From SAR116 cluster bacterium (GTDB taxonomy: Bacteria > Pseudomonadota > Alphaproteobacteria > Puniceispirillales > UBA1172), in contig NZIT01000079.1 in assembly GCA_002691725.1 (NCBI GenBank), positions 12,415 through 23,855 on the forward strand: DNA of 11,441 nucleotides, given 5' to 3'. This document shows, piece by piece, positions 2,479-6,955 of the stretch (positions within the stretch are counted from its first letter, which is position 1; each line of letters starts with the position of its first letter). The notes under the pieces are model-generated. The model did not search any database and had not been told where the DNA came from. It was given only the letters and a program-made list of their open reading frames with translations. The translations under genes were made by a program, and so were the position numbers.

Positions 2479-3882
2479 TCACAGCTCTGGGATTGGCGTT
2501 GCGTTGAACTGAAAGCTGTTAATGCAGGCATCAACGCCGCCCATTTGCGCGATTTTCTGCTTTTGATCGCTGAGCGCTAATTGTGAGACTTTTTCAGGAT
2601 CGCAAATATCCCAAAGATGCGATTTTCCTTGCGCCAGGATATGCGCATATGCAGGATTATCGGACAGGTCATGGCGCTCATCAGGATCATTGCCAAGATC
2701 AAATAGCAATGGCGACATGCCAGCATACCAGATCAGTTTCCATTGCGCCCATGCCACCATAAATGACCCTGTTGTTGAGCCGCCATCGTGATACTCACTA
2801 AAACATGGCCGCGTGAGATCATCACTGTCTGCTTGGGCAAGCTGCACAAGATCAATGCCTGGCCATTCAGGCGGTTTTGTGATGCCAGCGACCTTAAGAA
2901 TAGTGGCTGGAATATCAAGTAAATGGACGCCGCTATCGCTGATTTTGGCTTGTGGGATATCCTGCCCTGATATGATCATAGGTATCCCTGCGGAGGCTTC
3001 AAACATAAACTGCTTTGTCCATAACCCGTGATCACCAAGCAACTCACCATGATCAGATGTATAAATAATCAGCGTATCGTCGCGCAAACCGGCGGCATCA
3101 ATGGCGGCTAGAATACGGCCAATGCAAGCATCCATAAAACTGGTTAAGCCGTAATATGACGCGATAGCTTGCTGGGCGCGCTTAGCGTCAAAATGATCAT
3201 GATAGTTAAAAAACCCTGCCATATTCTGAACTTCGGCATGATCATGCGTGAAGGGTTCTGGCACAGGCATCTGATCAGGATCATACATACGATAATATTC
3301 ATCTGGCGCAATAAGCGGATAATGCGGGCTGACTAAAGATATAAATCCGGCAAAAGGCGCATCATGCCGCGCTGGTTCAGCTAGCCATGTTTCGGCGGCG
3401 GATGTGATGCTAAGGTCATAATTGGTGTAACTGCTCTCGCCACTGCCAACCTCAGTTGCTAGTTCTGCGGCGCCTTGATAGTCAGGTAATTCATCACGGA
3501 CTAATCCAACTAGCCAGCCTTTTCCATGAACATGCATAGGCTTAATTTCTTTGCTAAAGCCGTGATCCACGCCAGCCTGAAAATGCAGTTTGCCAATTGA
3601 TGTCGTGTCATATCCTTGGCTGCGAAGCATATGCATCCAGCTGATCTGCTGACCATCATAGGGGGTCGCGCTATCCCAATAGCGGTTCTGGTGAACATAA
3701 GTTCCGGTCGCCAGTGCCGCCCTTGTTGGCACACACATGGGTGAGGCGGTATAGCCGCGTTTGAACAACGTGCCGTCATTCGCCAGCTGATCGAGATGCG
3801 GTGTTTTGACAATATCATGCCCCATGCAGCCCATGGCATCGCGGCGATGCTCATCCGATATGATGACAATAATATTTTTCAT
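2479..3882 (-). CDS. cytoplasmic sulfatase / phosphonate-monoester-hydrolase-like enzyme
   Basis: Alkaline-phosphatase-superfamily sulfatase, 467 aa, substrate unknown. The formylglycine motif C-V-P-T-R is at C50-R54, so the enzyme is the Cys type and needs a formylglycine-generating enzyme encoded elsewhere. Metal-site motifs are visible: ISDEHRRD near the N-terminus (D10, E11), GKLHF in the middle, and TSDHGELLGDHGLWTK with the downstream Asp-His pair. The family C-terminal segment (LFDLGNDPDERHDL) is present. The protein starts directly at the first beta strand with no signal peptide, unlike exported polysaccharide sulfatases and like cytoplasmic choline-sulfatase or phosphonate monoester hydrolase. 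It is the last gene of the leftward set and probably once followed aguB directly; an HNH cassette now separates them. No good ribosome-binding site precedes the ATG. Confidence 0.88.
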   Translation of the reverse strand: MKNIIVIISDEHRRDAMGCMGHDIVKTPHLDQLANDGTLFKRGYTASPMCVPTRAALATGTYVHQNRYWDSATPYDGQQISWMHMLRSQGYDTTSIGKLHFQAGVDHGFSKEIKPMHVHGKGWLVGLVRDELPDYQGAAELATEVGSGESSYTNYDLSITSAAETWLAEPARHDAPFAGFISLVSPHYPLIAPDEYYRMYDPDQMPVPEPFTHDHAEVQNMAGFFNYHDHFDAKRAQQAIASYYGLTSFMDACIGRILAAIDAAGLRDDTLIIYTSDHGELLGDHGLWTKQFMFEASAGIPMIISGQDIPQAKISDSGVHLLDIPATILKVAGITKPPEWPGIDLVQLAQADSDDLTRPCFSEYHDGGSTTGSFMVAWAQWKLIWYAGMSPLLFDLGNDPDERHDLSDNPAYAHILAQGKSHLWDICDPEKVSQLALSDQKQKIAQMGGVDACINSFQFNATPIPEL

Positions 3883-3907
3883 GATATTAATTTACGACTC
3901 AGATTTA

Positions 3908-3933
3908 GCACCCAAGTTTAGCACCCAAGTTTA
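3908..3933. repeat. 13-bp tandem duplication
   Basis: GCACCCAAGTTTA occurs twice head to tail (3908-3920 and 3921-3933). The right flank repeat has the unit once, with A for the first G (at 5058). It is therefore a local change made after the long repeat formed, consistent with replication slippage in non-coding DNA. Confidence 0.93.
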
Positions 3934-4032
3934 AGATAGGGACATTATGTCCTGATATTTCTCTGGCCGTCTATCTCTAAATAATCCCCAGCTTGCGCGT
4001 TCCGCCCCGCTTGGCATCAATATCAATATCGC
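3931..4032 (-). pseudogene. remnant of the aguB 3' end
   Basis: Read leftward, this repeats the last ~32 codons of aguB up to the equivalent TAA. One inserted base shifts the frame after the DIDIDA-like residues and leads to a premature TAG, so it no longer encodes the conserved RASWGLFRDRRPEKYQ tail. No start codon or upstream gene body is attached. It is a displaced fragment left when the HNH cassette entered, and the working 3' end is now supplied by the right-hand repeat. Confidence 0.88.
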
Positions 4033-4149
4033 AACATGGTTTCAGGACTGCGGTTTTCCCATAAATACAATTTTTCTTGTACTGGAGCATATTTTTAATT
4101 GCAGCGTCAAATCCTCTTTGCTTATGTTCAATATGTAGAAAATATTTTT

Positions 4150-4155
4150 GAGGAA
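4150..4155 (+). promoter_or_regulatory. ribosome-binding site for the HNH gene
   Basis: GAGGAA lies 6 nt before the ATG at 4162. It selects this start over an in-frame TTG at 4099, which has no such site and would add 21 unconvincing residues. The leader before it is A/T-rich, but no convincing -35/-10 pair stands out. Confidence 0.65.
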
Positions 4156-4161
4156 TTTGCT

Positions 4162-4461
4162 ATGGCTTATGGTGTCTTTATGCATAAGCATGATTCCATA
4201 TATGATGATATTCCTTCAAAGCAATATCGGTTTCCTAAACAGTATAAGTCGCGTGCTGATAAGTTCGTCAATGATTGGATTGCGTATTTAGAGCCCTCAC
4301 GTATGCGTGATACGCGAGGATACTTTGCCATTGCCAAGGTGCAGCGCATTATTCCTGAGCCAAATCAGCCTGATTTTTATCTCGCCCTTATCGAACCTGG
4401 CAGCTATCTTGATTTTGGCAAGTATGTACAGTTCAAAGAAGACGGTCATTACCTCGAATGA
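4162..4461 (+). CDS. N-terminal half of split HNH endonuclease
   Basis: A 99-residue product ending at the TGA of codon 100. It starts MAYGVFMHKHDSIYDD and contains DWIAYLEPSRMRDTRGYFAIAKVQRI, then YLALIEPGSYLDF. The alternating hydrophobic pattern with G-Y-F-A-I-A-K-V suggests a small beta-barrel of PUA/EVE-like type, which in other HNH restriction enzymes reads modified bases. That fold is my inference from pattern only. No catalytic motif lies in this half. It has a good ribosome-binding site (GAGGAA), so a truncated protein may be made. It should be read with the next entry as one original gene. Confidence 0.55.
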   Translation: MAYGVFMHKHDSIYDDIPSKQYRFPKQYKSRADKFVNDWIAYLEPSRMRDTRGYFAIAKVQRIIPEPNQPDFYLALIEPGSYLDFGKYVQFKEDGHYLE

Positions 4462-4464
4462 GGA

Positions 4465-5052
4465 TTGCTAAATGAAAAAGGAAAATTATCAGGACGCGCG
4501 CAAGCTGCCATACGTCCAATGTCATCAGAAGATTTTGAACGCATTATCTCGCGTGGCTTAGAAGCAGATATCTTGCCACCAGAGAACCCGGATATGCCGG
4601 CTGGATTTGCCGAAGACCCCGCACCTTTTTATGACGATCCATCCAGAGAAATGATTACAAGTTGGACGACAAGAGCGGCGCGTGACCGAAACTTTCGTAA
4701 AATAGTCCTCACCGCGTATAAAGAAACCTGCGCCATCACAGGGATTAGGCTTATTAATGGTGGCGGCAGAGCAGAGGCACAAGCCGCCCATATCAAACCT
4801 GTTGAACATGATGGCCCTGATATCGTTAGTAATGGCATTGCCCTTACGGGTACAGCGCACTGGATGTTTGATAGAGGATTAATAAGTTTATCAGATAATC
4901 TAGACATTTTAATATCTAGGCAGGCCAATGATTATGACACGATCAAATCTATGATCAATTCGTCAGGTCAATTGATTAAGCCCGACCGCATTGTCCATTA
5001 TCCGCATCCAGAATTTATCGCTTGGCATCGTGATAATTGTTATAAACATTAG
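4465..5052 (+). CDS. C-terminal half of split HNH endonuclease (HNH_2-type domain)
   Basis: A 195-residue open frame holding the nuclease core. ETCAITG is followed by AEAQAAHIKPVEHDGPDI, then NGIAL and TAHWMFDRGLISLSDNLDILIS, the layout of HNH_2-type domains with His-Asn-His at H210, N224 and H233 in full-gene numbering. The only early start is TTG at 4465, 3 nt after the preceding TGA, and no ribosome-binding site of its own is obvious. Translation would depend on readthrough or coupled restart. The stop TAG (5050-5052) overlaps the first two bases of the right flank repeat. The domain itself looks undamaged, which suggests the TGA is recent. Confidence 0.55.
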   Translation: MLNEKGKLSGRAQAAIRPMSSEDFERIISRGLEADILPPENPDMPAGFAEDPAPFYDDPSREMITSWTTRAARDRNFRKIVLTAYKETCAITGIRLINGGGRAEAQAAHIKPVEHDGPDIVSNGIALTGTAHWMFDRGLISLSDNLDILISRQANDYDTIKSMINSSGQLIKPDRIVHYPHPEFIAWHRDNCYKH

Positions 5053-5168
5053 ATTTAACACCCAAGTTTAAGATAAGGACATTATGTCCTGATATTTCTC
5101 TGGCCGTCTATCTCTAAATAATCCCCAGCTTGCGCGTTCCGCCCGCATGGCATCAATATCAATATCGC
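5051..5168. repeat. right copy of long direct repeat (aguB tail)
   Basis: This 118-bp copy matches 3901-4032. It contributes the last ~32 codons and stop of the intact aguB gene and about 17 bp beyond it. Because it keeps the aguB frame, while the left copy has a frameshift and a tandem duplication, selection has acted on this copy only. Confidence 0.95.
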
Positions 5169-5922
5169 TGGCCGCAATCTGATTAACGCCGTCATGACAT
5201 TCGGCTATTAATGCGCCAGTATGATCAGCGATAAATGACTGGCCATAAAATGACATATTGATGGCGCCAATCTTCTCATTGCCAATTCGGTTACTCGCCG
5301 CCAGAGTGACCATATTGGCGGCGGCATGGCCTTGCATCACGCGCTGCCAATGGCCGCTTGAATCAAGTGATGGATCACCCGGCTCGGAGCCAATAGCCGT
5401 CGGATAAAGCAAAATATCAGCGCCTTTAAGCGCCATGATACGGGCGGCTTCTGGAAACCATTGATCCCAGCAAATCGCCACACCGATCCGGCCAAATGCC
5501 GTATCCCAGACGCGAAAGCCCAAATCGCCGGGATTAAAATAAAACTTTTCTTCATAGCCAGGTCCTTGCGGTAAATGGGTTTTTCGGTAAAGCCCCATAT
5601 CGCTTCCATCAGCGTCGATCATCATTACGGAATTGAAATAGGCGTTATTGCTTTTCTCAAAAAAACTGATGGGTAGGACAACACCACATTCTTTTGCAAG
5701 CACCCTAAATCTTGGCAAAAATGGATGGCTATCGACCTCATGAGCATACGAGAAATAGTCTTTTTTCTGCTCAGGGCAAAAATACACCGTCGCGAATAAT
5801 TCTTGAAGCAAAACTATATGCGCGCCTTGATCTGCTGCCTGCCGAACGAGCGCCTCAGCCTGATTGATATTATCCTCAACATTCCAGCCACACGGCATTT
5901 GTGTGATAGCAAGTCGGGTCAT
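5068..5922 (-). CDS. aguB: N-carbamoylputrescine amidase
   Basis: Nitrilase-superfamily hydrolase predicted to convert N-carbamoylputrescine to putrescine, ammonia and CO2. Numbered from the ATG at 5922 (284 aa), the catalytic triad is E41 (LLQELF), K114 (YRKTH) and C151 (AICWDQWFPEAAR). The segments GPGYEEKFYFNPGD, YPTAIGSEP and SGHWQRVMQGHAAANM, and the tail RASWGLFRDRRPEKY, are typical of AguB from bacteria and plants. An upstream in-frame TTG at 5940 is less likely, because GGAG lies 7 nt before the ATG at 5922 and MTRLAITQM fits the family N-terminus. No agmatine deiminase (AguA), the usual source of its substrate, is in the window. Its last ~32 codons are part of a long repeat created by the neighbouring HNH insertion. 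Confidence 0.92.
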   Translation of the reverse strand: MTRLAITQMPCGWNVEDNINQAEALVRQAADQGAHIVLLQELFATVYFCPEQKKDYFSYAHEVDSHPFLPRFRVLAKECGVVLPISFFEKSNNAYFNSVMMIDADGSDMGLYRKTHLPQGPGYEEKFYFNPGDLGFRVWDTAFGRIGVAICWDQWFPEAARIMALKGADILLYPTAIGSEPGDPSLDSSGHWQRVMQGHAAANMVTLAASNRIGNEKIGAINMSFYGQSFIADHTGALIAECHDGVNQIAASDIDIDAMRAERASWGLFRDRRPEKYQDIMSLS

Positions 5923-5923
5923 T

Positions 5924-6955
5924 TTAGCGCTCCAATCCAATAAGGAAATTAACCGTGTTTATGCCGATATCCTTGACCGCATAGCCGCCTTCCATGACCG
6001 TCAGCGTCGGCAGATCAAGAGCATTGATGCGCGCCCCCATATCAAAATAATCATCGCTCTTTAGTTTGAAAAAACTAATGGGATCATTCTCATAAGTATC
6101 TGCACCAAATGACACGATCAAACTATCCGGAGCATAGGCGCGGATGGATGCAATCGCCTGATCCAACGCCTCAACCCAAGCCGCATAAGGGGTGTTTGGC
6201 GGCATCGGATAATTGATATTATAACCTTCGCCTTGCCCATAGCCAGTTTCATCAGCATAGCCCAGAAAATGAGGAAAGGCATCAACAGGGTCGCCATGAA
6301 GCGATAAAAACATCACATCATCACGATCATAGAAAATCGCTTGCGTGCCATTACCATGATGGAAATCAACATCAAGAATAGCAACTTTATAAGCGCCGTT
6401 TTGACGCATATATTGAGCCGCTACCGCCGCATTATTGATAAAGCAATAGCCGCCATATTGATCGCGTGACGCATGATGACCGGGCGGCCGACAAAGCGAA
6501 AACATATGATGCGCTTTGCCCGATGCAATATGATCAGCGCCCGTCAGCGCGACTTGCGCGGATGCATGGACGGCCTCAACCGTGCCTTTGGCGATTGAGG
6601 TTTCGCTAGACAGCGCGTAATAGCCAATCTTGCCATCAATAAATGCTGGGATATGCGGTGCTGGCATGGATCGTGATGGCCAGACGGTGGGGATAGGCTC
6701 ACCCTTCATACCTGACGCCTGCCACTCATCCCAAGCCGTATCCAGAAACGCCAGATAGCCCGCATCATGCACTTGGTTGATGATATCATTGCCATAATTA
6801 TTGGGGGCTTTGATACTGCCAACAGGTCTTTCTTTTAAGGCTTCCAGGATAAAATCCATACGTTCAGGACACTCAAATGGAGGCACCAACTCACCCCCAT
6901 AAAGCTCAGTTTTCGCCGCCCGTAAGCGATGATCCTCGGTATAAATAATATCCAT
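5924..6955 (-). CDS. aphA: acetylpolyamine amidohydrolase (HDAC fold)
   Basis: Zinc-dependent deacetylase predicted to remove acetyl groups from acetylputrescine and longer acetylpolyamines, releasing free polyamine. At 343 aa it matches the length of the Mycoplana ramosa enzyme, and many stretches agree with it from memory: KTELYGGELVPPFE with the polyamine-selective E17, FSLCRPPGHHA (H160, H161), GGYCFINNAAVAAQ, ILDVDFHHGNGTQ, HGDPVDAFPHFLGY and DPISFFKL. Zinc ligands are D197, H199 and D291; the catalytic tyrosine is Y325 in EGGY. E17 separates it from histone-type and acetoin-type family members. The start ATG lies 3 nt after the stop of the flavoenzyme gene, with AAGG inside that gene's end, and its own stop is 1 nt from the aguB start. 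Its role is probably to feed acetylated polyamines into the putrescine pool made by speB and aguB. Confidence 0.93.
   Translation of the reverse strand: MDIIYTEDHRLRAAKTELYGGELVPPFECPERMDFILEALKERPVGSIKAPNNYGNDIINQVHDAGYLAFLDTAWDEWQASGMKGEPIPTVWPSRSMPAPHIPAFIDGKIGYYALSSETSIAKGTVEAVHASAQVALTGADHIASGKAHHMFSLCRPPGHHASRDQYGGYCFINNAAVAAQYMRQNGAYKVAILDVDFHHGNGTQAIFYDRDDVMFLSLHGDPVDAFPHFLGYADETGYGQGEGYNINYPMPPNTPYAAWVEALDQAIASIRAYAPDSLIVSFGADTYENDPISFFKLKSDDYFDMGARINALDLPTLTVMEGGYAVKDIGINTVNFLIGLER
5930..5933 (-). promoter_or_regulatory. ribosome-binding site of aguB inside the end of aphA
   Basis: GGAG lies within the last codons of the acetylpolyamine amidohydrolase gene. That gene's TAA (5924-5926) is separated from the aguB ATG by a single base. 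This fixes the aguB start at 5922 and indicates translational coupling of the two genes. Confidence 0.65.

Follow-up and report, generated by a model that had tools for sequence, protein, structure and literature searches.

A solitary EVE-HNH nuclease gene between aguB and a sulfatase gene in a SAR116 cluster bacterium: probable insertion with long target duplication

Introduction

Long target duplication accompanying restriction-modification genes in Helicobacter pylori was reportedly described by Nobusato et al. in 2000 (Gene 259:99) and by Furuta et al. in 2010 (NAR 38:2428). As far as the available text of one later account goes, insertion with long target duplication was discovered through the comparison of two H. 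pylori genomes and is often linked to restriction-modification genes (PMC1643837), and the pattern published for such genes, in the parts of the three accounts considered here, has the same form as the insertion that we describe below (PMC1643837, PMC3031569, PMC3874152). The likeness extends to the restriction-type cargo, the direct duplication of roughly 100 bp of target, the empty site that a close relative shows and the lack of a link to any known mobile element. In contrast to the H. pylori cases, as far as those accounts describe them, our locus carries a lone nuclease without a methyltransferase, its host is a marine alphaproteobacterium, and the nuclease family itself seems to repeat the pattern. 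Within the literature covered, outside which most subscription journals lie, we found no report in which long target duplication is linked to a modification-dependent nuclease that stands alone.

The closest described relative of the cargo, judging from the accessible part of its description, is VcaM4I (6yex; PMC7897488), which likewise joins an EVE-like N-terminal domain to a C-terminal HNH domain in one chain. The resemblance lies in this layout: sequence identity is low, the whole-chain superposition is weak (rmsd 12.7 over 185 residues), and our gene, the activity of which is a prediction, is interrupted.

Results

The window, by which we mean the whole analyzed stretch of 11,441 nucleotides, lies inside a 32-kb contig (C26) of a draft genome (G000; 2.12 Mb in 124 contigs, 88% complete). 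Two intact genes on the minus strand, a sulfatase gene (2479..3882; Pfam Sulfatase, E 9.4e-47) and the aguB-type carbon-nitrogen hydrolase gene that served as insertion target (5068..5940; CN_hydrolase, E 5.8e-52), are separated by an inserted segment of 1,018 bp (4033..5050, plus strand) that has a repeat copy at either end. The aguB-side copy (5051..5168, minus strand) comprises the last 98 coding bases of aguB, the stop codon and 17 bp of spacer, while the displaced copy (3901..4032, minus strand) adjoins the sulfatase gene. Aligned in direct orientation, the two copies are set apart by three substitutions, by an indel of 1 bp and by a 13-bp unit that the displaced copy has in addition, and both these counts and the repeat coordinates had been given correctly in the initial annotation of this DNA. 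The alignment scores 163 bits (96.6% over 116 columns), while the best of 952 sham window pairs reaches 60.5 bits. A three-way alignment with the single copy of a sister genome (L006) shows that the aguB-side copy is identical to it across the aguB coding part and that the coding-part differences of the sulfatase-side copy are two substitutions and a frameshifting 1-bp insertion, in agreement with the earlier description of the repeat as the end of aguB plus its spacer, intact beside aguB and frameshifted beside the sulfatase gene. The working aguB copy has thus been kept and the displaced copy is drifting. In the spacer part, the two copies of the window are one substitution and one 13-bp unit apart. 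The aguB-sulfatase spacer as a whole is a series of 13-bp units in degenerate form; L006 has about five of them (2374-2447) and the displaced copy of the window three (3892-3926).

The insert is poorer in G+C than the rest of the window (0.422, or 42%, vs 0.494). It holds no terminal inverted repeat above the level of shuffled sequence (the best 14-mer match, 9, was reached by 273 of 300 shuffles) and, as had been noted before, no recombinase is encoded among its frames, those antisense to the nuclease gene set aside; a Pfam search of both halves of its gene returned HNH_2 alone and no transposase. An insertion sequence or transposon was rejected on these two grounds.

The single gene of the insert (4162..5052, plus strand, counted from the conserved start at 4162, with an alternative TTG start possible at 4099) takes the last two bases of its stop codon (5050-5052) from the first two of the repeat. 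The initial annotation was right that the segment holds only a nuclease gene, and it missed that this gene is not intact: comparison with a nearly identical intact allele on record (P0002, on a contig of 1,255 bp) places an in-frame TGA at 4459..4461 (plus strand), from which the frame is open up to 5052, while relatives have a single frame of about 299 codons. The TGA falls within an EVE-like region of the PUA superfamily (4162..4563, plus strand; residues 22-155 in the structure model of the intact allele), which is followed by an HNH_2 domain (4729..4890, plus strand; Pfam PF13391 on residues 211-264 of the intact allele). As read from domain matches and the model, the architecture is EVE-HNH, as in the modification-dependent enzyme VcaM4I; an EVE-type PUA-superfamily domain was recognized, and the HNH domain is supported by HNH_2 and by sequence matches to TagI and 6yex. 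Since the structure was modeled with moderate confidence (mean pLDDT 62.6, with residues 156-245 below 50), the HNH assignment rests on sequence. By this architecture the cargo is classed as a restriction-type gene, for which modification-dependent cleavage is predicted only; a match to an NCBIfam model of a phosphorothioated-DNA restriction endonuclease stays below its cut-off (101 vs 180 bits). The insert contains no cognate methyltransferase and has room for the nuclease gene alone, and we therefore do not file it as a restriction-modification system. Interruptions occur elsewhere in the family: among 83 nuclease loci (the 80 top-ranked of 460 genome matches together with three viral contigs), we read the seven short frames and found that in-frame stops or frameshifts disrupt all seven genes (L058, L070, L075, L079, L083, L100 and L112), some of which come from isolate genomes.

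We then compared the aguB-sulfatase junction among relatives. In L006 (genome G006 of the same genus, with matching blocks 94.8% and 94.9% identical to the window), aguB is followed by one repeat copy and the sulfatase gene, with no insert, and in L007 (G007) and L010 (G009) aguB also directly adjoins the sulfatase gene. An empty site with one repeat copy, which had been proposed as a check, is thus present in L006, albeit with a gap between the genes of 74 bp, consisting of degenerate 13-bp units, in L006 and of 21 bp in L007 instead of the roughly 35 bp expected. In L008 and L009, aguB stands beside an arginase-family gene instead, and G011, the last of the six other genomes of the genus, gave no close aguB match. 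The nuclease gene is absent from all six of these genomes and present in 2 of 12 genomes of the family, the second being G005, and in 2 of 136 of the order, while the 129-bp leader of the insert (4033-4161) occurs in the window's genome alone among the 12. Because L006 retains the empty site with a single repeat copy, the insertion of the nuclease segment between aguB and the sulfatase gene is established, which is the part common to the two readings offered initially, long target duplication and site-specific entry at the 3' end of a gene. As to its age, the displaced copy has collected two substitutions over the roughly 100 bp that were once coding, and the sulfatase genes of the window and L006 differ at 28 of 468 third codon positions; from this comparison, we infer that the insertion is not older than, and perhaps near, the split from the sister genome G006.

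Given this anatomy, we asked how often members of the nuclease family are flanked by direct repeats. The collection comprised 180 loci (the 83 described above, 20 and 76 further ones, and the window), of which 169 are distinct. Flanks of 300 bp or more on each side were available for 165 of the distinct loci; direct repeats of at least 40 bits within 500 bp on both sides were counted, with sham windows as control. Such repeats flank 4 of the 165 loci (the window with 163 bits, L139 with 76, L201 with 57.5 and L070 with 55.9), compared to 1 of 952 sham windows (one-sided Fisher p 0.002). With the window dropped, since it prompted the test, the count is 3 of 164 (p 0.011), and with L139 and L070 additionally merged as one event it is 2 of 163 (p 0.058); the single sham hit (L226, 60.5 bits) scores higher than both L201 and L070. 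The excess over the sham windows is modest, suggestive rather than strong, and the anatomy of the individual cases weighs more.

A second event with the same anatomy and with empty sites of its own lies between a tRNA-Phe gene and an alpha/beta-hydrolase gene, where the nuclease is inserted in L139, L147 and L070, while in L148 and L149 the tRNA-Phe directly adjoins the hydrolase gene. In L139, a stretch of 63 bp (90% identical), consisting of 11 nt from the 3' end of the tRNA and the spacer next to it, is found on both sides of the nuclease; L070 has the same insertion, with copies of 98 bp (69%) that extend to the start of the hydrolase gene. The tRNA-Phe end of L070 has taken up yet another insertion, about 1 kb long (4744-5900), which parts a 3' fragment from the whole tRNA-Phe. 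A probable third case is L134 (3240-5353), in which an intact sirtuin gene is separated by about 2.0 kb from a second copy of its own 3' end (101 bp, 88%). The intervening segment contains the nuclease and a pair of genes, the first Gp49-like, which we take to be a RelE/HigB-like toxin of a toxin-antitoxin pair, and the second without a Pfam match. The other six genomes of that genus each have one copy of the sirtuin end within the 2.4-3.8 kb examined, followed by sequence that varies; in one locus of the genus (L163), the second gene of the pair comes directly after the sirtuin, and a clean empty site was found in none of the six. L201, with a 137-bp repeat (67%) over the start of a gene that by eye resembles tetR, is probably a further duplication, and L223 (41 bp, 85%) is a possible one whose score of 38.9 bits is near the control range. 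The suggestion that the same HNH gene might have duplicated flanks at other loci thus holds for the tRNA-Phe/hydrolase gap and probably for the sirtuin end, but most of the collected loci show no flanking repeat.

Extending the repeat search over all available flanks also returned inverted repeats of up to 88 bits (L117), so that matches from this wide search prove little by themselves. Three of its direct repeats were discarded: that of L084/L138, read by eye as the tail of a second nuclease remnant and not a target duplication; that of L038, which marks the two ends of a tRNA-Arg island; and that of L116, in a stretch that is also repeated in inverted orientation. In L084 (the same as L138), this remnant is situated about 2.2 kb upstream of the nuclease and comprises the tail of the decayed copy along with the spacer downstream of it. 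Direct repeats were further seen in L037, L089, L105 and L186. A repeat of 15 bp at the tRNA-Ser of L109 is borderline with respect to chance, since one of the 934 sham windows has a repeat of that length.

The genomic neighborhoods of the family also point to tRNA genes. In 9 of 179 collected loci, a tRNA gene lies within 220 bp of the nuclease, while 1.4 would be expected (Poisson p 2e-5), a limit that was picked after the list had been seen, the next distance being 890 bp. Eight of the nine have the tRNA 3' end towards the nuclease gene, at a distance of at most 190 bp (Arg in L137, L126 and L128; Ser in L109, L143 and L093; Phe in L139; Gln in L240); by eye, no integrase is evident in the frames near the first seven of these (L137, L126, L128, L109, L143, L093 and L139). 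In roseobacters, by comparison, integrase elements do carry the nuclease family. Of the 21 roseobacter loci examined, 19 have a tRNA-Arg-like end at a fixed distance of 3,150 bp before the nuclease stop; in one of these, L038, a Phage_integrase gene stands between this end and the nuclease, the whole tRNA-Arg(CCT) follows 3.9 kb beyond the nuclease, and a 47-bp repeat marks both ends of the resulting island of about 7 kb. The islands of L038 and its relatives share with the window the nuclease family and the direct repeats at the ends, but they have an integrase gene and use a tRNA. Both are missing from the window insert, whose repeat exceeds theirs in length and duplicates host spacer. Members of the family were further found in 49 of 72,556 plasmid records, most of them from rhizobia, on three viral contigs, and in none of 50,697 phage records; the family is present in 24 of 385 genomes of a class sample and 71 of 394 of one family sample.

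Discussion

Direct repeats of the order of 100 bp (118 and 132 bp), a relative with the empty site, a restriction-type cargo and the lack of any linked mobile element of a known kind together make it probable, in our view, that a foreign single-gene EVE-HNH segment was inserted and that about 118 bp of the target were directly duplicated in the event. The duplicate contains the 3' end of aguB and the spacer, and for this reason aguB stayed intact; the decay of the displaced repeat copy and of the nuclease gene came later.

The main rival is a reduced integrative element, in which the repeats would be the attachment sites of a tyrosine-integrase element whose integrase acted in trans or was deleted. 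Such an element would fit the position of the repeat over the end of aguB, which is still intact, the nine loci near a tRNA with eight 3' ends towards the nuclease, the additional insertion in the tRNA-Phe end of L070, the Phage_integrase gene on the tRNA-Arg(CCT) island of L038, and the variable sequence after the sirtuin within the genus of L134. We nevertheless consider it unlikely, if worth keeping in mind. The window insert brings no integrase of its own, and the 118-bp repeat includes the spacer of 13-bp units that is common to L006 and not to L007, so that an incoming attachment site would have to come from a near-identical donor genome. Moreover, the repeat of L139 shares just 11 nt with the tRNA, at its 3' end, and otherwise lies outside it, and in L139 and L070 the duplicated stretch runs from the 3' tip of the tRNA across the spacer and towards the following gene or into its start. 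For these reasons, a copying of the target fits better than site-specific entry at the end of a gene. Ordinary homology could alternatively have integrated, by a single crossover, a circle bearing the nuclease gene and an aguB end, which yields exactly this arrangement of flanking direct repeats, and such circles might arise when a previous insertion of this type loops out. Yet this would move an existing nuclease-aguB join between near-identical genomes and leave the origin of the join unexplained, and no circle was seen; we regard it as very improbable.

Two further explanations were rejected. That unrelated contigs were joined at a short repeat during assembly is a concern with a draft genome in 124 contigs and 88% complete, but it is hardly credible here: the repeat copies differ, the displaced one is drifting, the window lies within a contig of 32 kb, and the contig with the intact allele, at 1,255 bp, has about the length of the insert plus two repeats (1,254-1,268 bp). 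Still less credible is an ancestral insert that the relatives lost by recombination between the repeats. Loss of this kind would restore a single-copy site, but separate losses would be needed in L006, L007 and L010, and the gene is absent from all six other genomes of the genus.

Returning to the duplication of the target at insertion, end joining and template switching are the usual models for how such duplications form. The route that we favor, tentatively and at somewhat less than even confidence, would begin with a break at the target site, whose repair would capture an incoming DNA fragment bearing the nuclease gene. The exposed flank would then be copied again, either by the filling in of long single-stranded ends or by a template switch in replication, and the insertions that survive would be those whose duplication left both neighbors working. 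It is tempting to speculate that the EVE-HNH family is itself a one-gene mobile unit, whose nuclease makes offset cuts in targets such as tRNA tips and gene ends, with repair giving duplications of about 60-140 bp. We consider this improbable; if true, one protein would be both a defense enzyme and the agent of its own spread.

The window is a variant of the insertion-with-long-target-duplication pattern, in which the cargo and the host differ. How small restriction genes spread without a transposase has been unsettled since the Helicobacter description, and several features come together in the present case: the sister genome shows the empty site, the insert holds just one gene, the decay of the displaced copy sets a bound on the age of the event, and relatives of the nuclease seemingly repeat the pattern. 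With the family so widely distributed, cultured rhizobia or roseobacters would allow a test of the mechanism. The target gene was kept working by the duplication, which suggests why insertions of this kind survive at the ends of genes.
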